From the IMG/VR virus record IMGVR_UViG_3300044612_001652, positions 1 through 44,171 of that record: 44,171 nt of DNA. One strand, given 5' to 3'. This document shows positions 5,644-44,171 of the stretch, piece by piece; positions within the stretch are counted from its first letter, which is position 1; the number at the start of each line of letters is the position of its first letter. The notes under the pieces were generated by a model. The model was not told where the DNA came from and made no database searches. It saw nothing but the letters and a program-made list of their open reading frames with translations. The DNA comes from a virus. Made by a program: the position numbers and the translations under genes.

Positions 5644-5810
5644 TCCGCGCCCTCCTCAACCGCCTGCGCCGGCAGCCCTCGGCCTTCGACCTCAGGCTGG
5701 CCGAGTTCGACCGCCGCATTGCGGAGGCCAGGGCCAAGCATCGATCGATCCGACACATCGAGGCCGAGCGCCGCGAGTTTGTTCATGGGTGCCTGCGGGG
5801 TTCCCGGTGA
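5640..5810 (+). CDS. Small basic hypothetical protein
   Basis: 56 residues, strongly helical and basic (MIRALLNRLRRQPSAFDLRL, then AEFDRRIAEARAKHRSIRH). ATGA overlap upstream and GTGA overlap with rusA downstream. Possibly a nucleic-acid-binding accessory; no family recognised. Confidence 0.65.
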   Translation: MIRALLNRLRRQPSAFDLRLAEFDRRIAEARAKHRSIRHIEAERREFVHGCLRGSR

Positions 5811-6160
5811 TCCGGCTGACCCTGCCTTACCCGCCCTCGGTGAACGCCACACATCGCGCTGTGAATGGCCGGGTCATCCTGTCCAAGCGGTATCGCGACT
5901 GGATCTTGGAAGCCGGGAAGGCGGTTGCCGCGCAGCTGCCGGCGCAGGCCCCGCTCAAGCACTACCAGCTCTTGATCGAGGCGAGCCCGCCCGACCTCCG
6001 ACGCCGCGATCTTGGCAACCTCGAAAAGCCCGTTTCGGACCTCCTGCAGCGCGCCGGGGTGATCGAAGACGACCGGATGGCCCGCTTCATCGGGCTGTCG
6101 TGGTCCGACCTCCCGCCCGCCAAGCCGGGCTCACTCAAACTGAGGATTTACGCAGTATGA
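5807..6160 (+). CDS. rusA: RusA-type Holliday junction resolvase
   Basis: 117 residues, the usual RusA length. The N terminus (LTLPYPPSVNATHR) is the family's first strand and DNA-contact loop. Acidic catalytic positions are present: D68 in RRDLGN, D78 and the pair D88/D89 in VIEDDRM, with K74 between. RusA cuts four-way junctions symmetrically to resolve recombination and replication intermediates before packaging. GTG at 5807 is chosen; it overlaps the previous stop and gives the conserved N terminus, while the longer open frame upstream is another gene's shadow. Confidence 0.92.
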   Translation: MIRLTLPYPPSVNATHRAVNGRVILSKRYRDWILEAGKAVAAQLPAQAPLKHYQLLIEASPPDLRRRDLGNLEKPVSDLLQRAGVIEDDRMARFIGLSWSDLPPAKPGSLKLRIYAV

Positions 6161-6525
6161 CCTGGACGGAAGAACACGACCTGACCCTTCTGGCGATGCG
6201 CTGGAACGGCTCAACCAACGCGCAGATTGCGCTGAAGTTCAACGTCTCGGCCAAGGCGGTGTCGGAGCGCCTGCGCCGGATCGGCCATCGAGCGCAGCCG
6301 GCCAAGATCGAGCGCCGCGCCGTGGTCGCCGTGAAGCCGTCCACAACCGAGACCGAGCGCGACATGCGCGCCGACCGCGCCAAGCAGCGCGAGGCCTGCC
6401 AGCGCCATGCCGACGCCGTGATGGCCCTGGGTGGCTTCTGCGCCTTCTCCGACTCCGGCGACAAGCGCGGCCCGTTCGGGATCGCTCGCCCTCTGGTCTA
6501 CCCCAACCGGCGGTGGGCGGCATGA
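6157..6525 (+). CDS. SANT/GcrA-like HTH protein with SDSGDK motif
   Basis: 122 residues. Residues 1-50 (WTEEHDLTLLAMRWNGSTNA, then IALKFNVSAKAVSERLRRIG) form a Myb/GcrA-like helix-turn-helix. The C terminus carries GGFCAFSDSGDKRGPFGIA then PLVY, which recurs as GFAAYSDTGNKKTALGI then PLIY in the protein at 37598-38119. ATGA overlaps link it to rusA and the GcrA homologue. Probably a DNA-binding regulator; the role of the C-terminal motif is unknown. Confidence 0.8.
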   Translation: MTWTEEHDLTLLAMRWNGSTNAQIALKFNVSAKAVSERLRRIGHRAQPAKIERRAVVAVKPSTTETERDMRADRAKQREACQRHADAVMALGGFCAFSDSGDKRGPFGIARPLVYPNRRWAA

Positions 6526-7076: not shown

Positions 7077-7411
7077 CCTATCAGGCAGGCTCAATCCCCG
7101 GCTACGGAGCGCCGCTCAAGACCGTGGCCACTTATGCCGGCCTCACCGGCAAGGACTACTTCCGCGCCGTGCTGGCCGACGTTGCCGCCCTGCGTGGCGT
7201 GAAAGGGGACGACATCACCGGCCCGTCGCGCCTGCGCGAGCTCGTCCATGCCCGGCAGGAAGTGGCGTGGAAGGTTCGGCAGGCGCAGACCGCGTGTTTT
7301 GAGCCCCGCTTCTCCCTCTCGCAGATCGGCACATGGCTCGGCGGCAGGGACCACAGCACCATCCTTCACGCCATCCGCGCCCATGAGAAGCGCAGGGGAG
7401 GGCAGGGGTGA
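7070..7411 (+). CDS. DnaA domain IV-like replication protein
   Basis: 113 residues. The C-terminal third (FSLSQIGTWLGGRDHSTILH) is the DnaA-box-reading signature of DnaA domain IV. The AAA+ ATPase and domain I are absent, so it cannot act as a full initiator; it may bind DnaA boxes or the neighbouring iterons and recruit host replication proteins. Start overlaps the GcrA homologue by seven bases, stop overlaps the next GTG by four. Confidence 0.85.
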   Translation: MLTYQAGSIPGYGAPLKTVATYAGLTGKDYFRAVLADVAALRGVKGDDITGPSRLRELVHARQEVAWKVRQAQTACFEPRFSLSQIGTWLGGRDHSTILHAIRAHEKRRGGQG

Positions 7412-8067
7412 GCGTGTCGGCTAGGTCCCTGCGTCTGCTCATGGAGGCCGGCCTGTCGGGCGAGGCCCTGCTGGCTATCGTTGAGAGCCTGGAGGAGGAT
7501 TGCAGGCCTGCGCGTTCGTTGAGTGCCGAGCGGCAGGCCCGATACCGCGCCCGCAAGGCCTCTGAGGTTGACGGCGTAACGAATAACGTAACGAGTGACG
7601 TAACGCGTGGCGTTACTTCCCCTCCCCCCCTCGCCCCTTCCCCCCCAGACCCCCCCAACCCCACACCCCCCCGCCTGGATATAACTCCACGCGTGAAGGG
7701 GCCGGCCGGCAAGCCGTCTGGCTTTGCCCGGTGGTGGGAGGCCTACCCCAACAAGGTCGGAAAGCAGGCAGCGGAACGGGCATACGCCACGGCCTGCCGC
7801 AAGATCGGCGGTCCTGAACCGCCCCGCGTCCTGCTGGACGGCCTGCAAAGGGCCTTGGCGTCTGGCGTCTGGGACGAGGGCTTTATCCCCCACCCGACGA
7901 CCTGGCTGAACCAAGGCCGCTGGGACGACGAGCCTGCCCCTAAAACCCCACCCCGGAAAGCCCATGAACGCGCTGACCTCCGTCAAACCGAACGCTCCGA
8001 CGCTCTCGAAGCGCATTTCGCCGGCGCTTCTGCTGCGCTTGCAGAACGCCGGGCAAACCTGGGCTGA
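7408..8067 (+). CDS. Phage replication initiation protein (lambda O position)
   Basis: 219 residues. The N terminus is a short helical region, then a four-residue repeat ending in VT (residues 56-68) and a long proline-rich linker. The C-terminal domain (FARWWEAYPNKVGKQAAERA, then GFIPHPTTWLNQGRWDDE) is typical of phage replication proteins that follow early regulators. The VT repeat is encoded by the 12-bp iteron array, so the likely origin lies inside this gene, as in lambda O. GTG start overlaps the upstream stop. Confidence 0.8.
   Translation: MSVSARSLRLLMEAGLSGEALLAIVESLEEDCRPARSLSAERQARYRARKASEVDGVTNNVTSDVTRGVTSPPPLAPSPPDPPNPTPPRLDITPRVKGPAGKPSGFARWWEAYPNKVGKQAAERAYATACRKIGGPEPPRVLLDGLQRALASGVWDEGFIPHPTTWLNQGRWDDEPAPKTPPRKAHERADLRQTERSDALEAHFAGASAALAERRANLG
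7575..7616. repeat. Iteron array, candidate replication origin
   Basis: CGTAACG starts at 7575, 7587 and 7599, and CGTTAC (its inverse) at 7611: four elements at an exact 12-base period. A pyrimidine-rich, C-dominated tract follows to about 7680. Location inside the replication gene and next to a DnaA-like gene supports an origin; the usual AT-rich melting region is not evident. Confidence 0.6.
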
Positions 8068-36280: not shown

Positions 36281-36531
36281 TGGTCAGCCTCCTTGAGCAG
36301 ACAGTCGATGGCCGCCGCAAAAGCCGCGTGGTCGCCGGTCATCGGCGGGTTCATCTGGTCCCACTCGCGAAGGCGCTTCAGGAACGCCTCCAGCTCCTTA
36401 ATCCGCTCGGCGGATGCGGCCAGCGCGGCTCGGTAGGACAAAGGGCGATAGTGCCGAACATACAAAGGCGCTTTTTGATCAATCACCCAGATCAGCGCCT
36501 CGTCGGTGGGCTCGTCGGTGGGCTCACTCAT
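36277..36531 (-). CDS. Small acidic phage protein, complete copy
   Basis: 84 residues. Begins with repeated DEPT, then IWVIDQKAPLYVRHYRPLSY and a helical end (ERIKELEAFLKRLREWDQMN). Its first 24 codons match the fragment at 1-72 base for base. Function unknown. Confidence 0.75.
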   Translation of the reverse strand: MSEPTDEPTDEALIWVIDQKAPLYVRHYRPLSYRAALAASAERIKELEAFLKRLREWDQMNPPMTGDHAAFAAAIDCLLKEADQ

Positions 36532-36568
36532 CGTGCAGCCCTCCCGGCTTTGTATGCGGCGAGGGCGG
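36460..36568. repeat. Exact direct repeat, copy 2
   Basis: Identical to bases 1-109. Upstream of 36460 the match cannot be followed because the first copy is cut by the window edge. The distance between copies is 36459 bases, equal to a complete temperate-phage gene set. Confidence 0.95.
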
Positions 36569-36902
36569 CGGCTGCCGTCTTGGCGAAATTGCGGCTGTAT
36601 TTAGAAATGTGGTCCAACTCCTCCACCAGCACCTTCGCCCGCTCCTGTTCTTGCGCTCGGGCCATGCGAGCACCGGCGAGGAAGGCATCGCTTATGGTCA
36701 GGTGCCTAGTGGAGGTGAAGCTTCCGGCCCACTCCCTGAACGCCAGCACATCCGGGTCAACCGGCGGCGGCGGGGTCCAGCCTTCGCGGGCTAGGCGGGC
36801 GGCGATCATGGCGCGGTTTTCTTCGCCAACACGAGATTCGGCGCTTTCCCACAGACGGTAGGCTTCAGCGCCTCGCGCCCTGTCCAGTTCTTCATTGGTC
36901 AT
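36528..36902 (-). CDS. Hypothetical early protein (MTNEELD family), copy 2
   Basis: 124 residues. Shares MTNEELD, LAREGWTPPPPVDPDVLA and AALAAYKAGRAAR with 69-365, at nearly identical DNA level, but the middle segments (RARGAEAYRLWESAESRVGE; FTSTRHLTISDAFLAGARMA) are unrelated or strongly diverged and 26 residues longer. Function unknown. Confidence 0.78.
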   Translation of the reverse strand: MTNEELDRARGAEAYRLWESAESRVGEENRAMIAARLAREGWTPPPPVDPDVLAFREWAGSFTSTRHLTISDAFLAGARMARAQEQERAKVLVEELDHISKYSRNFAKTAAAALAAYKAGRAAR

Positions 36903-37228
36903 CGTGCAGTCTCCTTTGCGATGGTGGCGGGGTCTAGGGCGATGATTTCTTCCGCAATTGTTTCATTGAGGGGCGGACTGCGGTGATCGTCGACGAAATT
37001 AAGGGCCTCCTTCGCAGCAGCCTCCAGCCCTAGCCGGATGCCCTCTAGGCGAGCGGCGTCGATCAGGTGCTGGTTGAAGATTTGGTAGCCTCGCGCATGG
37101 GGCCAGTCTACGTCTTGGGCCTCGCAGTGGTAATACTCGTCGGGAAGCTCCAAGACATCCGCGACATACACCCACACATCATCCGCGACCGGCTGGGGTC
37201 CGCCGTCGTGTTCGATCCAGTCAGTCAT
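36899..37228 (-). CDS. WIEH-type hypothetical protein
   Basis: 109 residues. N terminus MTDWIEHDGGPQPVADDVWV resembles the 57-residue protein at 8985-9158; the rest is acidic with a helical end and the same AKETAR tail as 362-625. Function unknown. Confidence 0.75.
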   Translation of the reverse strand: MTDWIEHDGGPQPVADDVWVYVADVLELPDEYYHCEAQDVDWPHARGYQIFNQHLIDAARLEGIRLGLEAAAKEALNFVDDHRSPPLNETIAEEIIALDPATIAKETAR

Positions 37229-37389: not shown

Positions 37390-37601
37390 TGCTCCATCTC
37401 CTTCTTGACGGCGTGGTGCCCAGCCCAGCCGGGGTTGTCGGCTTGCCCCTCCACCAGTAGGTCTTCGATCCGCTCGCGGATGCGGGTGACGTTCGCCAAC
37501 GCACGCATGTAGAGGTCGTGGTGGTGGTTAGCGTAGTTGTTAGCCTCGGCCAGTCTCTGGCGAAGCTGGTTAATCCGGTCGATGCGTTCTTGTTCAGTCA
37601 T
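37386..37601 (-). CDS. Small coiled-coil protein
   Basis: 71 residues, helical (EQERIDRINQLRQRLAEANN), with an HHH run. It is the leftmost gene preceded by the module's GAGGAGCAAACC leader, so it marks the boundary between the two styles of gene organisation. Confidence 0.72.
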   Translation of the reverse strand: MTEQERIDRINQLRQRLAEANNYANHHHDLYMRALANVTRIRERIEDLLVEGQADNPGWAGHHAVKKEMEQ

Positions 37602-38119
37602 TGGTTTGCTCCTCGGTAGATAAGGGGAAGCTTGATCCCCAGTGCCGTCTTCTTGTTGCCGGTGTCGCTGTAAGCGGCGAACCCACGGGGGTCCGCACTT
37701 AGGATGGCGGTAGCGTGGTTCTCGGTCTGCATCGGGAAGTTGATAGGGTCCCCGGATATCTTCGGCATGGGGGGTTCCTTAGGTGCCGCTGACCTCCGCC
37801 GCTTCTCCTCGTCGCGCTCCCGCTCGCGCAGCCTCTTGTACCTACGCTGCACGATAGAAAGGGACCGGTTGAACTCCACAGAGATGTCCAGCCATAGGGT
37901 CCCTGATTTGCGCGCAGCCAGTAGCCGCTGGTCCTCGTCCTGCGTGAAAGGCGCAGCGTCGGTGGCGGACCGCATGAGCAGAACGTGTTGCCTGTAACGC
38001 ACCCCCTCCTTGGACCGGTTCAATGCCCGGGCGACCTGCGTTACGCTTACCTTGTTGCGGGTAGCCACGAGGATGAACTCGTCTTCGTCCTCTGTGAACT
38101 TCTGTGCTGGAAACGGCAC
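37598..38119 (-). CDS. Two-repeat Myb/SANT-like DNA-binding protein
   Basis: 173 residues. Two tandem HTH repeats: FTEDEDEFILVATRNKVSVT with QVARALNRSKEGVRYR (residues 8-43), and FTQDEDQRLLAARKSGTLWL with EFNRSLSIVQRRYKRL (58-98). The C terminus ends with GFAAYSDTGNKKTALGI and PLIY, matching 6157-6525. GTG start follows AGGAGCAAACAC. A terminator lies just upstream, so it has its own promoter or depends on read-through. Likely a regulator. Confidence 0.78.
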   Translation of the reverse strand: MPFPAQKFTEDEDEFILVATRNKVSVTQVARALNRSKEGVRYRQHVLLMRSATDAAPFTQDEDQRLLAARKSGTLWLDISVEFNRSLSIVQRRYKRLRERERDEEKRRRSAAPKEPPMPKISGDPINFPMQTENHATAILSADPRGFAAYSDTGNKKTALGIKLPLIYRGANQ

Positions 38120-38802: not shown

Positions 38803-38991
38803 TCAGGTGGCGTAGACGAGGGCGACGAGAGGGAACACCCTGTCGTGGATTTCCTTGGTGGCGTAATCGGACCACAGGACCGTTGCCGTGTCGCCGTCTA
38901 CAGAGACCACAGTCATGCGGCTCGACCCGCTCTTGAGGGCCACTACGTCGCCGGGCGAAAAGCCCTTGGGGTTGAGATTGGTATCGTTCAT
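38803..38991 (-). CDS. YodC/DUF2158-like small protein
   Basis: 62 residues. FSPGDVVALKSGSSRMTVVS then VDGDTATVLWSD matches the small beta-barrel DUF2158 (YodC) pattern of a GDVVxLKSGxxxMTV start and a strand ending in W. Function of that family is not established. ATG 38991 chosen by the AAGGAGCAAACCAA leader. Confidence 0.75.
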   Translation of the reverse strand: MNDTNLNPKGFSPGDVVALKSGSSRMTVVSVDGDTATVLWSDYATKEIHDRVFPLVALVYAT

Positions 38992-39209
38992 TTGGTTTGC
39001 TCCTTTGGGAAGATAGACACAGGATGATTTGCTTGACAAGGGGGGTTCTGGTTGGCGATCTGCTCTTCGGTGTAGGCGACGATAGCGTCACGCATCCGCC
39101 AGACTTTCCCCCCGTAGAAATCCAGCACGTGTGGGGGTACACGCATACCGATATGGACGCGGGCAGGGCGCTTACTAGGCCCCCGCCTCTTACGGGTTTT
39201 CTCCTTCAT
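38988..39209 (-). CDS. Small basic hypothetical protein
   Basis: 73 residues, strongly basic N terminus (KEKTRKRRGPSKRPARVHIG) and a helical core. Perhaps nucleic-acid binding. The C-terminal codons carry the ribosome site of the next gene (EQTK comes from GAGCAAACCAAA). Leader GGAGCCTAACC. Confidence 0.68.
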   Translation of the reverse strand: MKEKTRKRRGPSKRPARVHIGMRVPPHVLDFYGGKVWRMRDAIVAYTEEQIANQNPPCQANHPVSIFPKEQTK

Positions 39210-39211
39210 GG

Positions 39212-40105
39212 TTAGGCTCCGATTACGAACGTAGTCTCATCGACGCGGACGCCGTGGCCAGCCACGAAGCGGTTCTGGTCAGGGTCTTGCAGCTTCAGGA
39301 TGGACAGGGACAGCTTGGTGGGGTCGGGCAGTTGGTCCAGCGTTACCTCGTCGCTGGAGTCAATGTCGTTGCTGACCCGCATCAAAACGCGGATGAACTT
39401 GCCGCCGCCTCGGTCGAGGAAGACATACCTGTTTGAGTTCTGGAACTTGATGATGTCCGCTTCATCGGCCTTGAAAGCCTTCACCTCGCTGTATTGCGCC
39501 CGCTGTTCTTGGGTCAGGGTGGCGGAAAAAGCTTCCTCATGGGCCATGGCGAAGTCCATGGCAGCCTCGGCAAGGTCACGTATCCTACCAGTCTGCCCGT
39601 GCCTCCGGCGCGTGACTAGAGTAGTCGCCATGGCGTTGGCTGGCCGCGCGACCTCCTTGACCTTCTCGGCCACCGTCTTGGCGTAGAACGACTTGACCAT
39701 GTGCTTGGCAGCAACCTGTAGCTTGGTAGTCTCTTGGTGGCGCTTGCGGGCGAGTGCCCGGTCGATGCGCACGTTGGTAACGCAGTAGGTTGGGACTAGC
39801 CCGCCAGCGCCTTTGGCGTACTTCTGGTCCAGCCAGATTTCCCCGATCTTCTCGTCCCCGTCGAAGACCTGAAGGCGCGAGAAGTGGAGCGTGTTGTCTG
39901 TGTACGCAGCGCCGAAGGCCCTGCCCGTAGCCTCGGCTTTGTACTTCCAGTGGGGGCGTGACCTGCGCACCGCGCTGGTTAGTTGGACGAGTAGGTCGTG
40001 CGCGGCGAAGACGAGACTGCGGTTGTAGTCGTTAGCGAGCTCCACAACGCCATTGGGTATGTTGTCGAGGGGTCGGTATTGGTGCTTAGTGGGTTGGGTA
40101 TACAT
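39212..40105 (-). CDS. Unknown 297-residue phage protein
   Basis: 297 residues, soluble, mixed. Helical middle (KLQVAAKHMVKSFYAKTVAE) and a beta-rich C terminus (RYVFLDRGGGKFIRVLMRVS). No catalytic motif recognised. Leader AGGAGCAACTTC. Paired with the 303-residue gene upstream; the two may work together. Confidence 0.72.
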   Translation of the reverse strand: MYTQPTKHQYRPLDNIPNGVVELANDYNRSLVFAAHDLLVQLTSAVRRSRPHWKYKAEATGRAFGAAYTDNTLHFSRLQVFDGDEKIGEIWLDQKYAKGAGGLVPTYCVTNVRIDRALARKRHQETTKLQVAAKHMVKSFYAKTVAEKVKEVARPANAMATTLVTRRRHGQTGRIRDLAEAAMDFAMAHEEAFSATLTQEQRAQYSEVKAFKADEADIIKFQNSNRYVFLDRGGGKFIRVLMRVSNDIDSSDEVTLDQLPDPTKLSLSILKLQDPDQNRFVAGHGVRVDETTFVIGA

Positions 40106-40119
40106 GAAGTTGCTCCTTC

Positions 40120-41031
40120 CTAGTTGAAGTACTTGCGGTTGACGTCGGCCATGTGTGTCGGCTTGGTGTTAGGCTTCACCTCGAAGATTTCTTCCCGGTA
40201 AGCGTGCTTTGCTTGTTCCCAAGCGTAAGAAATTACGTCTTCAATGGTTTTGTACGCCCTGAAGACTTGGGGAGAGTATGAGTTGCTCTGAAACCAAGGG
40301 GCGCGTGCCAAGAGGTGTTCGTGCAGCGTGTACCAGTCTGCCGGATCATCGCTTTCCATACATTGTATGCAAAGATCGCGGTCGGTGTAAGCCGCGCTAC
40401 GAAGGCGGACGGGCGACGCACCGACGTCGATGAGACTGAGGGTGATGGTCTCCTCGGGTACGCGCGCCCACCCACGTCGCGTTAGCTGGACGTGCTCCGA
40501 CTTGAGTTTCAGGAAGATTTCCAACTGGGTCATGTAGGGTTTGACCCGCTTCTTGACTGCGTTGAGCGCCTTGCGGTTAACCGCGTAGTGCGTACCGGTG
40601 CTCCCCTCCTTGGCGAGAACCCATCGGGTGTCCTCGGGGTTGCGCTTGAACGTCACCACCCCCTCCGTCAAGTCCAGTAGAACGGGCCTGTCGTGGCCCG
40701 TATCCAACCAGTTGCGGCCTCCGCGCACATATACCCTGATACCGGTAGTGGCGTTGATGAAGCGCTGGTTGTTGCTGTACGTACTGCCGTTGGGTATTAC
40801 GAGCTTCAGGGTGCCGTCTTTTTGGTAGACGACTTGGGGGCCGTGTTTCCAGTGGCAGTTCTCGCGCAGGACGATATCCTCTCCTACGCGTTCGATGCTC
40901 ATACGCCAGTCCCTGCGACGGGCGAGCGGCTTCTCGGTGCGCCCCCGGATCGGCTTTACGCTGGCCTCGTGCGAGGCCCAGTCCGCGTACTTGCGGTATC
41001 CCTTGATGTGGTCTGTGATGAAGTACGTCAT
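40120..41031 (-). CDS. Unknown 303-residue phage protein
   Basis: 303 residues. Beta-rich N-terminal part (MSIERVGEDIVLRENCHWKH, KLVIPNGSTYSNNQRFINAT) and helical C terminus. A CIQC pair (near residue 235) is the only notable motif. First gene after the promoter at 41057-41085, leader AAGGAGCAATCTC. Function unknown. Confidence 0.72.
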   Translation of the reverse strand: MTYFITDHIKGYRKYADWASHEASVKPIRGRTEKPLARRRDWRMSIERVGEDIVLRENCHWKHGPQVVYQKDGTLKLVIPNGSTYSNNQRFINATTGIRVYVRGGRNWLDTGHDRPVLLDLTEGVVTFKRNPEDTRWVLAKEGSTGTHYAVNRKALNAVKKRVKPYMTQLEIFLKLKSEHVQLTRRGWARVPEETITLSLIDVGASPVRLRSAAYTDRDLCIQCMESDDPADWYTLHEHLLARAPWFQSNSYSPQVFRAYKTIEDVISYAWEQAKHAYREEIFEVKPNTKPTHMADVNRKYFN

Positions 41032-41056: not shown

Positions 41057-41085
41057 AGTGTAGTACAAAAAGCTTACTTAGTCAA
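41057..41085 (-). promoter_or_regulatory. Strong sigma70-type promoter
   Basis: Minus strand: TTGACT (41085-41080), 17 bases, TACACT (41062-41057), with an AT-rich spacer unusual for this DNA. The downstream edge reads ACACTATAGAA, which also equals the core of SP6-type phage promoters. It would drive 40120 and genes after it. Confidence 0.6.
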
Positions 41086-41272
41086 GTCCTTTCATCCATT
41101 GCGGAGGCCACCAGTCCACTTCCCCCGTCGCGATGGATTTGAAGTAGTAGGTGTCATCCTTTTCTTGGTAGTAACTGTACATCCAGAGGTGCCCGTTTCG
41201 CATGTAGTAGCTAGTATTCGTAACTCCTTGCGGGTCTAGCCGGTACACCTCTCCCACTACGAACTTAGGCAT
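41078..41272 (-). CDS. GWLW-family small protein, member 6
   Basis: 64 residues. Family pattern: VGEVYRLDP start, NGHLWMYSYYQE centre (His replaces Trp of GWLW), YYFKSIATGEVDWWP end. Last gene of the six-gene array; its stop lies inside the next promoter. Function unknown. Confidence 0.78.
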   Translation of the reverse strand: MPKFVVGEVYRLDPQGVTNTSYYMRNGHLWMYSYYQEKDDTYYFKSIATGEVDWWPPQWMKGLD

Positions 41273-41290
41273 CCGATCCCCCGTAAGATT

Positions 41291-41620
41291 TTACGCATCA
41301 GGTTCTCCCTCTGTAACCGCGAAGTCCGGAAACTCGTACGCTTGGCCAGTTAGTACAGACCTGAACAGACCGAACCTTCGGTGATGCACGAACACCACTC
41401 CCGGTTTGCCCCTGAACCCGCCAGCACTCTGGTATTTCAGACTGTGTATCTCCCATGGCCGGTCGCGCACCCATGCGTTCACCATAATTTCAGCCTTGCT
41501 ATGGGCGGCGTCCGGGCTTCGAGACCATACTACCTCGCATATCCAGAGCCAGCCGTGTTCTTCCCCAAAGGCTTCCGCGAACGGCTCGCCTAATTTGTAT
41601 ATCTCACCCTTCTTCAGCAT
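41291..41620 (-). CDS. GWLW-family small protein, member 5 (long)
   Basis: 109 residues. KKGEIYKLGE, then EEHGWLWICE, an insertion of about 40 residues, and FGLFRSVLTGQAYEFPD. ATG at 41620 lies within the last codons of member 4; GGAGGCAGCAG before it is the ribosome site. Confidence 0.78.
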   Translation of the reverse strand: MLKKGEIYKLGEPFAEAFGEEHGWLWICEVVWSRSPDAAHSKAEIMVNAWVRDRPWEIHSLKYQSAGGFRGKPGVVFVHHRRFGLFRSVLTGQAYEFPDFAVTEGEPDA

Positions 41621-41822
41621 CTGCTGCCTCCAGTTCCTCGGGGGAAAAATGTTCTTCGCAGCCCGTGGTTATGGATTTAAGGATAGGCCATAAGTTATTC
41701 ACGTCGCCGTCGTCCTCCCCCTCCCAAATCCAGAGCCAGCCGTCAGTGGCTGTTAAGTAGGATAAGCGTTTTGCACAAACCCGATACACCCGGCCCACGA
41801 CCATATCTTCCAGCCTAACCAT
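41604..41822 (-). CDS. GWLW-family small protein, member 4
   Basis: 72 residues. VVGRVYRVCA, TATDGWLWIWEGEDDG, LKSITTGCEEHF, then EELEAADAEEG. ATG 41822 overlaps the end of member 3; GGAGG lies six bases before it. An ATG eight codons upstream is less likely. Confidence 0.78.
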   Translation of the reverse strand: MVRLEDMVVGRVYRVCAKRLSYLTATDGWLWIWEGEDDGDVNNLWPILKSITTGCEEHFSPEELEAADAEEG

Positions 41823-42036
41823 CTGCTGCCTCCAGTTCTTCTTCAAGAAACTGTTGCGTATCGCCTGTAGCCAGTGAGCGGCAAATGTAAAAGGTGTGCT
41901 CGTCTTCGTCGCGCTCGTCGTCGGTCATTTCCCCCTCCCACATGTACAGCCAGCCGCCGCGCTTCACTTCTGTTCGGACTTCCTCCTCCGTAGCGTATGC
42001 GTAAGAAGTTACGCGGTAGAGCTTACCCCTCTCCAT
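41815..42036 (-). CDS. GWLW-family small protein, member 3
   Basis: 73 residues. ERGKLYRVTS, RGGWLYMWEGEMTDD, YICRSLATGDTQQFL, ending EELEAADG. The codons for the EELEAAD tail double as the ribosome site of member 4. ATG 42036 preceded by GGGAGGAAGAGG. Confidence 0.78.
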   Translation of the reverse strand: MERGKLYRVTSYAYATEEEVRTEVKRGGWLYMWEGEMTDDERDEDEHTFYICRSLATGDTQQFLEEELEAADG

Positions 42037-42220
42037 CCTCTTCCTCCCAGTTCTCGAAAGTTCTTTCCGGGATGTCTGACGTGGCGATTTTTCCTGATCC
42101 CACCGACCTAAAGTAATAGATGGCTCCTTCTTTTCTCTCATACACCCATAGCCAGCCACCGTGCTCTTCTGCGGATGCTCTGTACTGAGGGAGTAACTTG
42201 ACCACGCTACCTATTTTCAT
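42023..42220 (-). CDS. GWLW-family small protein, member 2
   Basis: 65 residues. KIGSVVKLLP, EEHGGWLWVYERKEG, YYFRSVGSGKIATSDIP, with a very acidic tail. Uses AGA, AAA and A-ending codons often, unlike the structural genes. Overlaps members 1 and 3 by 14 bases each. Confidence 0.8.
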   Translation of the reverse strand: MKIGSVVKLLPQYRASAEEHGGWLWVYERKEGAIYYFRSVGSGKIATSDIPERTFENWEEEDGEG

Positions 42221-42428
42221 CCTCGGCCTCCTCTAACCATCTTTCCGGCCACACCAACCATATAACCTTACCCGTAGCGACGGACCTGAAACGAGGGTCT
42301 CCCTGCCGCAGGCCATACCGTGTGTTCAGGTCCTCACAGACCCATAGCCAGCCTCCTTCATCGGAAATCCGGCCCGCGCCCGCAATGCCGCCCTTAAGCC
42401 GGTACACTCTACCCTTCTCCAGTTTCAT
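42207..42428 (-). CDS. GWLW-family small protein, member 1
   Basis: 73 residues from ATG 42428 (another ATG directly before). KLEKGRVYRLKG, SDEGGWLWVCEDLNT, FRSVATGKVIWLVWPE, acidic tail. First of the tandem array, preceded by AAGGAGG and a strong hairpin. The open frame upstream is a shadow of the VWA gene. Confidence 0.8.
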   Translation of the reverse strand: MKLEKGRVYRLKGGIAGAGRISDEGGWLWVCEDLNTRYGLRQGDPRFRSVATGKVIWLVWPERWLEEAEDENR

Positions 42429-42441
42429 CATCTGCCTCCTT

Positions 42442-42463
42442 GGGGGAGCCCGGAGGCTCCCCC
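42442..42463 (-). other. Strong intercistronic hairpin (no U-tract)
   Basis: Minus strand: GGGGGAGCC, TCCG, GGCTCCCCC, then AAGGAGG, the ribosome site of member 1. Nine perfect pairs with a UNCG-type loop but no T-run, so an mRNA stability or processing element rather than a simple terminator. Confidence 0.7.
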
Positions 42464-42471
42464 GTAATTTC

Positions 42472-43680
42472 TTACGTAATGTCGTCGATGTGCAGGACGC
42501 GACCGTTGTCAGGCACAGCCGACTTGTTGCCGATGACGATCCACAGGACCGGAGCATCCCAGCCCTTACCCCAGTTGGGCACGTGGCCATCCGTCAGCAT
42601 GATGACGCACTGCGGCTTGATCTTGTGCTCCTTGAGGTAGTCGGGGACGCATTGCGGGTCGGTGCCGCCGCCGCCCTTGGGCCGGGTAGACGCCAGAAGA
42701 CCGTCGATCTCGTGGCGCTCGTATCGCTCCGCTGCTTCTACCCGCGTATCCCAGTAGAGCAGATGCGTCGCGTCAGGCTTGACGCTTTGGGTGAGGCTGA
42801 CGATCTCGGTCAACAGGATAGTGGTAGGCGAAGGGTTGCCTCCCCACATGGACCCGGACAGGTCCGCACCGATGACGATCTCGCCCACGCTTTCACTGAT
42901 CGACGTAGGCAGAGCGATGCCCATAGAGAGGAACCGGCGGTTCAGCTTGCGCCACGAGGACTCGTCGTTACCCGCACAGACTTCTTGGACGAACTCGCGG
43001 AGAGCAGCGCGCCAATCCACCTGCGGGCGTAGCAGGTCGGTGACGGCCAGAGGCGTATCACCCTTACCCAGACCCAGCTTCTTGGCCTCTTCGAGGCTGC
43101 GGCGCATGATGACGTCGATCTCACGCCCCAGCTTCTCTTGGGCCTCTTCGCTCAGTTCGCTCGCGCCCTCCCAGTCGTGCTCGTCGAAGCCGTCGCCGGG
43201 GGGTCCCTTACCCTTGCCGCCTCCTTCTTGCTCCTGCTTGAGGCGGTCGAAGATGCGCTTGGCGCTCCAGCCGGAGAACTTGGGCTCGTGCAGACCCATC
43301 AGGCTCCCATCAGGGTTCTTGGGGAACTCGCAGACACTGGCGTCGGGGTCAGCCTTCACGATGATATCGTTCACGACGTAGTCGCAGGCGATGTTGGTGA
43401 GGCGCGGGTCCTCCTTCCACAGCTTCTGGTATACCGTCGTATGGCGAAGCGCCTTGTGGCACGCCTCGTGCAGGCAGACGAAGGCCAGTTGCTTGAGGGG
43501 CAGGCTGTCGATGAACTCGCGTCCATACGCCTCGTCGCGTCCGTTGGTCATAGCCGTAGGCAGGCCGTCCACGACTTTGATCGTGCCCACCGACATGACG
43601 CCAGACCAGAGGCGAAGGCCGGGAATTGTAGACCGCATCACGCTGATACGGGCCTTGGTCAGTTTACGTTCAGCTTCCAT
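42472..43680 (-). CDS. VWA-like/metallopeptidase-like protein (DUF2201 type)
   Basis: 402 residues. N-terminal metallopeptidase-like domain with HEACH at 71-75 followed by H80. A Gly/Lys/acidic linker (about 150-185) leads to a C-terminal VWA-like domain: MIDAS DLSGS at 273-277, T340/D341 in GGGGTDP, and MLTDG at 361-365. This pair of domains defines bacterial and phage proteins usually coded beside a MoxR-type AAA+ ATPase, where the VWA protein links the ATPase to a target. Leader AGGAGCAAACAAG. Which substrate it acts on is unknown. Confidence 0.88.
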   Translation of the reverse strand: MEAERKLTKARISVMRSTIPGLRLWSGVMSVGTIKVVDGLPTAMTNGRDEAYGREFIDSLPLKQLAFVCLHEACHKALRHTTVYQKLWKEDPRLTNIACDYVVNDIIVKADPDASVCEFPKNPDGSLMGLHEPKFSGWSAKRIFDRLKQEQEGGGKGKGPPGDGFDEHDWEGASELSEEAQEKLGREIDVIMRRSLEEAKKLGLGKGDTPLAVTDLLRPQVDWRAALREFVQEVCAGNDESSWRKLNRRFLSMGIALPTSISESVGEIVIGADLSGSMWGGNPSPTTILLTEIVSLTQSVKPDATHLLYWDTRVEAAERYERHEIDGLLASTRPKGGGGTDPQCVPDYLKEHKIKPQCVIMLTDGHVPNWGKGWDAPVLWIVIGNKSAVPDNGRVLHIDDIT

Positions 43681-43706: not shown

Positions 43707-44171
43707 TTACCAGCTGCTGTCGAGGATGGCGGTCAGCTTGCGGGACATATCCTCGCGCACTCCCGGGCTACCCTTCACGTCCTCAATGTCGATGCCGTAG
43801 ATAGCGTCGGACAGGGCGCGGCGGGCGCGTTCAAGTTCAGGGTCCTTGGTGACGTTGAGGTGCTTGAGCATCTCGGTCATGTCCTGCGCGTTGGTGACGA
43901 AGGTGTCATGCCACCGCTTCTTGGCGTCGGGGTCGTCGGGTTGGTTCAGCTTGTCCGTCATGGCGGTCAGCATCTTGTGGAGGCGATCCCATGGCTCGCG
44001 CATGGCCTCGGCCAGTCGGTCGTTGAAGGCGGCGTCGTATTGCTCGCGCATCTCCTGAATATCCTGCGCGGGTAGGTCCACGCGGAAATCCCCGCCTTCA
44101 GGCACAGGTGAGAACACCATGCGGAAAGCGAACTTGGACGCAACTTCCTCGACACTCGGGTAGTCGTTGGG
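43707..44171 (-). CDS. VWA-partner protein, 5' end outside the window
   Basis: At least 154 residues; the frame stays open to the right edge (PNDYPSVEEVASKFAFR before the first internal Met), so the gene begins outside. Helical and charged (IQEMREQYDAAFNDRLAEAM, WDRLHKMLTAMTDKLNQ). It precedes the VWA gene in the operon, as helical partner proteins do in MoxR-VWA clusters. No enzymatic motif. Confidence 0.78.
   Translation of the reverse strand, partial: PNDYPSVEEVASKFAFRMVFSPVPEGGDFRVDLPAQDIQEMREQYDAAFNDRLAEAMREPWDRLHKMLTAMTDKLNQPDDPDAKKRWHDTFVTNAQDMTEMLKHLNVTKDPELERARRALSDAIYGIDIEDVKGSPGVREDMSRKLTAILDSSW

Follow-up and report, generated by a model that had tools for sequence, protein, structure and literature searches.

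The six consecutive minus-strand genes at 41078-42431 of the window (the whole 44,171-nt stretch of viral DNA analysed) encode one orphan family of tiny proteins, called GWLW here, and this array is probably the cargo of an early module that is studded with operator-like palindromes.

The genes are g6 (42207-42431, 74 aa if started at 42431 and 73 aa from 42428), g5 (42023-42220, 65 aa), g4 (41815-42036, 73 aa), g3 (41604-41822, 72 aa), g2 (41291-41620, 109 aa) and g1 (41078-41272, 64 aa), being paralogues 1 to 6, respectively. An earlier note had described them as six tandem paralogues of 64-109 residues, and leave-one-out HMMs confirmed that these ORFs form one family. Every left-out paralogue was recovered among 9,640 ORFs (E = 1.5e-11 to 8.5e-6), ranking right behind the five training members, and the best non-member had an E-value of at least 1.2. 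Pairwise z-scores reach 13.9 (g4/g3), although g2 and g1 (z 1.0) or g2 and g4 (z 1.8) show no likeness when compared as pairs alone. Only five columns (G, G, L, S, G) are invariant in the six-sequence alignment. The common motifs are thus looser than had been proposed: the central GGWLW stands unaltered in g6 and g5 but reads GGWLY, DGWLW, HGWLW or, with the HLW of g1, NGHLW elsewhere, the glutamate after it is kept in five of the six proteins, and FRSxATG is exact in g6 and inexact in the other five. The insertion of about 40 residues in one member is real and belongs to g2. The variable acidic loop holds mainly for g3 and g4, whereas an acidic C-terminus is more frequent, in part since the DNA coding for it also contains the Shine-Dalgarno (SD) sequence of the following gene; acidic and basic residues number 16/6 in g3, 20/8 in g4 and 12/8 in g5.

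A purine-rich SD-like sequence lies ahead of each of the six starts. Genes g6 to g2 overlap head-to-tail (by 14 nt at g6/g5 and at g5/g4, 8 nt at g4/g3 and 17 nt at g3/g2), the 3' end of each encoding the SD of its successor, and these five genes are therefore very likely co-translated; g1 follows g2 after a gap of 18 nt. DNA repeats common to the g4-g3-g2 junctions (D2 at that of g3) are in keeping with tandem duplication. The GC content at third codon positions is 0.55-0.67 in the array against 0.76-0.83 in the neighbouring genes (0.76-0.80 in those for the VWA protein, g303 and g297), so the array may be of separate origin. A strong minus-strand hairpin (42441-42464, fold z = -4.4) occupies the g6 leader, after the VWA stop codon and ahead of the ribosome binding site of g6. 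As for the flanks, the adjoining VWA/metallopeptidase gene (42472-43680) was correctly recognised in the earlier note but is more important than was suggested there, as it is part of a conserved module that encloses the array, and the strong promoter is also present as a sigma-70-like TTGACT-N17-TACACT on the minus strand (41085-41057), but it lies upstream of g303 and is directed towards that gene, away from the array.

The expectation that no known family would fit was borne out by profile and sequence searches, which gave no convincing match in Pfam, NCBIfam, PHROGs or PDB. The match of g1 to phrog_15259 (E = 0.007) was set aside, as it concerned one of the six members only, and no GWLW protein had a Pfam match to DUF2829 (Tad2). 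Relatives were absent from INPHARED (tblastn), from the GTDB genomes (pattern search), from 33 + 390 + 385 genomes (about 800 alphaproteobacterial) searched with an HMM that recovers six of six GWLW proteins from the window itself, and from IMG/VR, where peptide- and DNA-pattern searches returned chance matches at most. Five loci considered as possible relatives (L079, L080, L105, L108 and L109) were rejected as chance matches, and a relation to small proteins encoded at other module loci was rejected by profile comparison. The family was also absent from the 27 module-bearing records searched, and no other phage carrying it was found by these searches in phage records or IMG/VR, from which records very close to the window may have been missing.

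The earlier suggestion of an SH3-like barrel gains support from the AlphaFold models of g6 (pLDDT 73.1, pTM 0.64) and g1 (pLDDT 83.6, pTM 0.71), each built from the six-sequence alignment. Both models have an identical strand order, with an extra helix between strands 1 and 2, and their top Foldseek matches in PDB are almost all SH3-like barrels: PWWP, Tudor, chromo and SH3 domains, NdhS/PsaE, the integrase C-terminal domain and ribosomal SH3-like proteins. All E-values exceed 0.1, the best for the two models being 0.18 and 0.44, which is not significant. It is likely but not proven that each GWLW protein is a small SH3-like barrel in which the GWLW and FRSxATG segments form core strands. The predicted strand order and the top structural matches are like those of small barrels such as Tudor, PWWP and SH3, from which the GWLW proteins differ by the added helix, the non-significant E-values and the lack of a sequence family match.

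The genes around the array lie in the order of a C-terminal part of a 280-aa protein labelled D3150-like (43707-44171, minus strand, cut by the end of the window), the VWA-metallopeptidase, the GWLW array, g303 (40120-41031), g297 (39212-40105) and g73, all on the minus strand. The VWA gene product matches DUF2201_N (E 2.9e-28) and DUF2201 (E 3.2e-11) in Pfam, and combines a VWA domain with a MIDAS (DxSxS, here DLSGS) with an HExxH metallopeptidase (here HEACH). Its relatives in IMG/VR (74 loci) have a conserved neighbourhood consisting of a g303-like protein, an AAA ATPase of 354 aa, the VWA-metallopeptidase, the 280-aa protein, to which the fragment in the window is up to 59% identical, and a g297-like protein. 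The AAA gene adjoins the VWA gene in most relatives; the record of the window ends at 44171 and the AAA gene is not inside it. The slots on either side of the VWA gene hold one to six small ORFs in the relatives (34 and 33 loci). For example, four tandem copies of another protein of about 66 residues (MNSRISDVKIEW...) lie between the VWA gene and that of the 280-aa protein in L026 (7658-8464), and a family of small proteins ending in KLL recurs in the VWA-side slots; by profile comparison neither is related to GWLW. Not one of the module relatives searched has GWLW, so this family is no fixed component of the AAA/VWA machine. A small DUF2158 protein, possibly another small barrel, is encoded in the same operon at 38803-39039.

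A phage pair of MoxR AAA ATPase and vWA-metallopeptidase, for which a role in virion assembly and protein processing was proposed, is known from jumbo phages (PMC7824862), and a comparable pair is N4 gp24/gp25 of the Schitoviridae. There, too, the VWA domain is fused to an N-terminal metallopeptidase and the partner AAA ATPase is adjacent, as in the relatives of the present module, which differs in adding the D3150-like, g303, g297 and ribbon-helix-helix (RHH)-like genes and the small-protein slots.

The module region is marked by a perfect palindrome that the earlier note did not mention, CGTAA-N4-TTACG, found in exactly four copies in 44 kb (0.015 expected), all within 2.25 kb and confined to 40.2-42.5 kb. 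The site at 42463-42476 lies 32 nt upstream of g6 and overlaps the VWA stop codon; that at 42000-42013 is within g4, near its start; that at 41282-41295 is 10 nt upstream of g1 and overlaps the -10 of a promoter-like site (41317-41288); and that at 40224-40237 is in the 3' end of g303, 119 nt upstream of g297. The four sites score 21.2-22.6 bits with a position weight matrix, the next best sequence scoring 12.7, and 300 shuffles of the region never produced three copies of a dyad of this size. Other loci, totalling 1.66 Mb, lack the palindrome. A host origin was rejected, since 15 genomes related to a Phenylobacterium contain it at a density of about 0.3 per Mb, with a total below that of a reversed control.

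Relatives of the module carry perfect palindromes of their own, including CTAACAwTGTTAG, CTGACAATTGTCAG, CCTAACAATTGTTAGG, TGTTATACCGTATAACA and TCCAC-N6-GTGGA. These lineage-specific sites reach 21 copies per 13 kb, coding genes included (L005-L078, e.g. L022, L006, L026, L033 and L076), and in full contigs they cluster in the early region that surrounds the module. A dispersed dyad at p < 1e-8 was detected in 55 of 73 module loci, among which near-duplicates are included so that the counts are not fully independent, against one of 24 pattern-picked viral loci, none of 69 capsid relatives and none of 41 prophage loci. It is this frequency in module loci and rarity in controls, together with the position of the palindromes within the module, that makes the array probable cargo of an operator-studded early module. 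The four cultured Schitoviridae regions with an AAA/VWA pair contain no dispersed or repeated dyad, unlike the module loci; promoters of the N4 hairpin type were rejected on this ground and because the phage is P22-like. The dispersed palindromes seem to represent a regulatory scheme of uncultured phages that has not been described before. Two comparable arrangements are known from mycobacteriophages. The start-associated sequences of cluster K, an asymmetric 13-bp repeat of unproven function, are likewise short, conserved, present in many copies and tied to gene starts (PMC3203893), whereas the sites described here are perfect palindromes and occur also within genes. The L5-type stoperators resemble them as numerous repressor sites that are placed in intergenic and upstream positions, but they lack symmetry and their repressor is a monomeric HTH protein (PMC9283540); here the sites are symmetric and the candidate regulator is RHH-like.

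This candidate palindrome binder, also overlooked in the earlier note, is g73 (38988-39209, minus strand), an RHH-like protein encoded directly behind g297. An RHH-like gene was found downstream of g297 in all 26 loci where both are seen, as well as in the window, and 20 of these 27 sequences have a significant dyad; the seven RHH-bearing loci without one at p < 1e-8 are all shorter than 8 kb. The alignment of 17 such RHH-like sequences has an invariant arginine in the strand and conserved helix positions. Although g73 has no Pfam match, its profile gave only three matches in PDB at E < 10, namely two CopG-family regulators (E 0.06) and 2q2k (E 0.33), which is ParR, an RHH protein. We infer that g73 may bind the CGTAA-N4-TTACG palindromes.

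We tentatively propose, with a probability of roughly 0.4, that the array is early-module cargo whose SH3-like barrels serve the AAA/VWA-peptidase machine under predicted control by g73 through the palindromes. Binding of g73 to these sites would set when the operon is expressed early in infection, and the barrels would be small binding proteins, either adaptors delivering targets to the machine or clients remodelled by it, with gene duplication providing several binding specificities in one phage. That the GWLW proteins are such adaptors or clients appears the most likely function, although we are less sure of it than of the binding of g73 to the palindromes. The association with the machine is suggested because the array adjoins the VWA gene and other small proteins recur in this slot. 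It is weakened by the absence of GWLW from the relatives. Phage early regions are full of small ORFs, moreover, so adjacency to the VWA gene is weak evidence of interaction. A wider version, in which the early programme of this phage group supplies an AAA/VWA-metallopeptidase machine with tiny binding proteins in interchangeable arrays that vary between lineages, all governed by an RHH protein reading a lineage-specific palindrome every few hundred bases, GWLW being one such adaptor array, seems unlikely. Phage AAA/VWA-metallopeptidase systems have been noted, yet we know of no targets for them; the recurrent set of partners, the regulator candidate and the well-delimited DNA site make these systems testable.

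Among other explanations, the six proteins might be independent inhibitors in anti-defence or host takeover, each directed at a different host protein or signal, with the module serving merely as a convenient early operon. Such a function is rather doubtful. It would suit proteins that are small, without known family and divergent in tandem, that are under early-type control by repeated palindromes and that are encoded in a variable accessory stretch missing from close relatives with an 88-89% identical capsid protein; but none of the searched families was matched at useful E-values, no anti-defence structure is among the PDB matches listed, and small orphan genes are a usual feature of phage early regions. 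Tad2 and other sponge-type anti-defence proteins are likewise small phage proteins, and L108 is a weak look-alike (HMM E = 0.05 after pattern selection); however, L108 has no Pfam match and the GWLW proteins have no convincing one. The anti-defence or decoy role put forward in the earlier note found no supporting match or context. Selection for variety and a variable copy number in related phages, also raised there, gained no support either, as neither orthologues nor another phage with the family were found.

A Tudor- or KOW-like binding to nucleic acid or RNA polymerase, by which the barrels would act as small regulators of phage or host transcription, is quite improbable. The Foldseek matches to DNA-bound PWWP domains, integrase C-terminal domains and ribosomal SH3-like proteins, and the DUF2158 protein in the same operon, point in this direction, whereas g3, g4 and g5 are clearly acidic and ill-suited to nucleic-acid binding, an acidity that would rather suit DNA mimicry. 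Equally improbable is a recent acquisition that was duplicated and is drifting with little function. The array is indeed a compositional outlier with no conserved orthologue found in the searches and with paralogue pairs as weak as z = 1, but the six intact frames, the coupled starts and the core residues kept despite strong divergence argue for purifying selection on the fold.

The phage carries genes for a P22-type portal and major capsid protein, an Erf annealing protein and NinB, as well as repressor-like genes. Its capsid relatives within bacterial genomes are mostly from Caulobacterales, which makes an alphaproteobacterium the probable host. Two long contigs with a capsid protein 88-89% identical lack the VWA gene, the array, g303 and g297, and in one of them (G031) the HNH gene and the exonuclease-like gene are separated by about 2.4 kb, whereas the window has more than 10 kb between them; this region is thus variable cargo. 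Circularity of the record was rejected because its two ends fail to join and no repeat was detected at the termini.

A family beginning MTDWIEHDGGPQPVADDVWV has three tandem copies and a weaker fourth alongside in L192 (8718-9674), a close relative of the phage, and a single copy in the window (36899-37228). Look-alike genes (MTNEELD...) are present at 69-365 and 36528-36902 of the window, and in relatives the HNH gene is followed by genes resembling them. Myb-like and GcrA-like DNA-binding proteins are encoded at 37598-38119 and 5719-6525, respectively. Three 12-bp iteron-like repeats of the CGTAACGAATAA type (7574-7615), located within a replication-initiator-like gene (7408-8067), possibly represent the replication origin.
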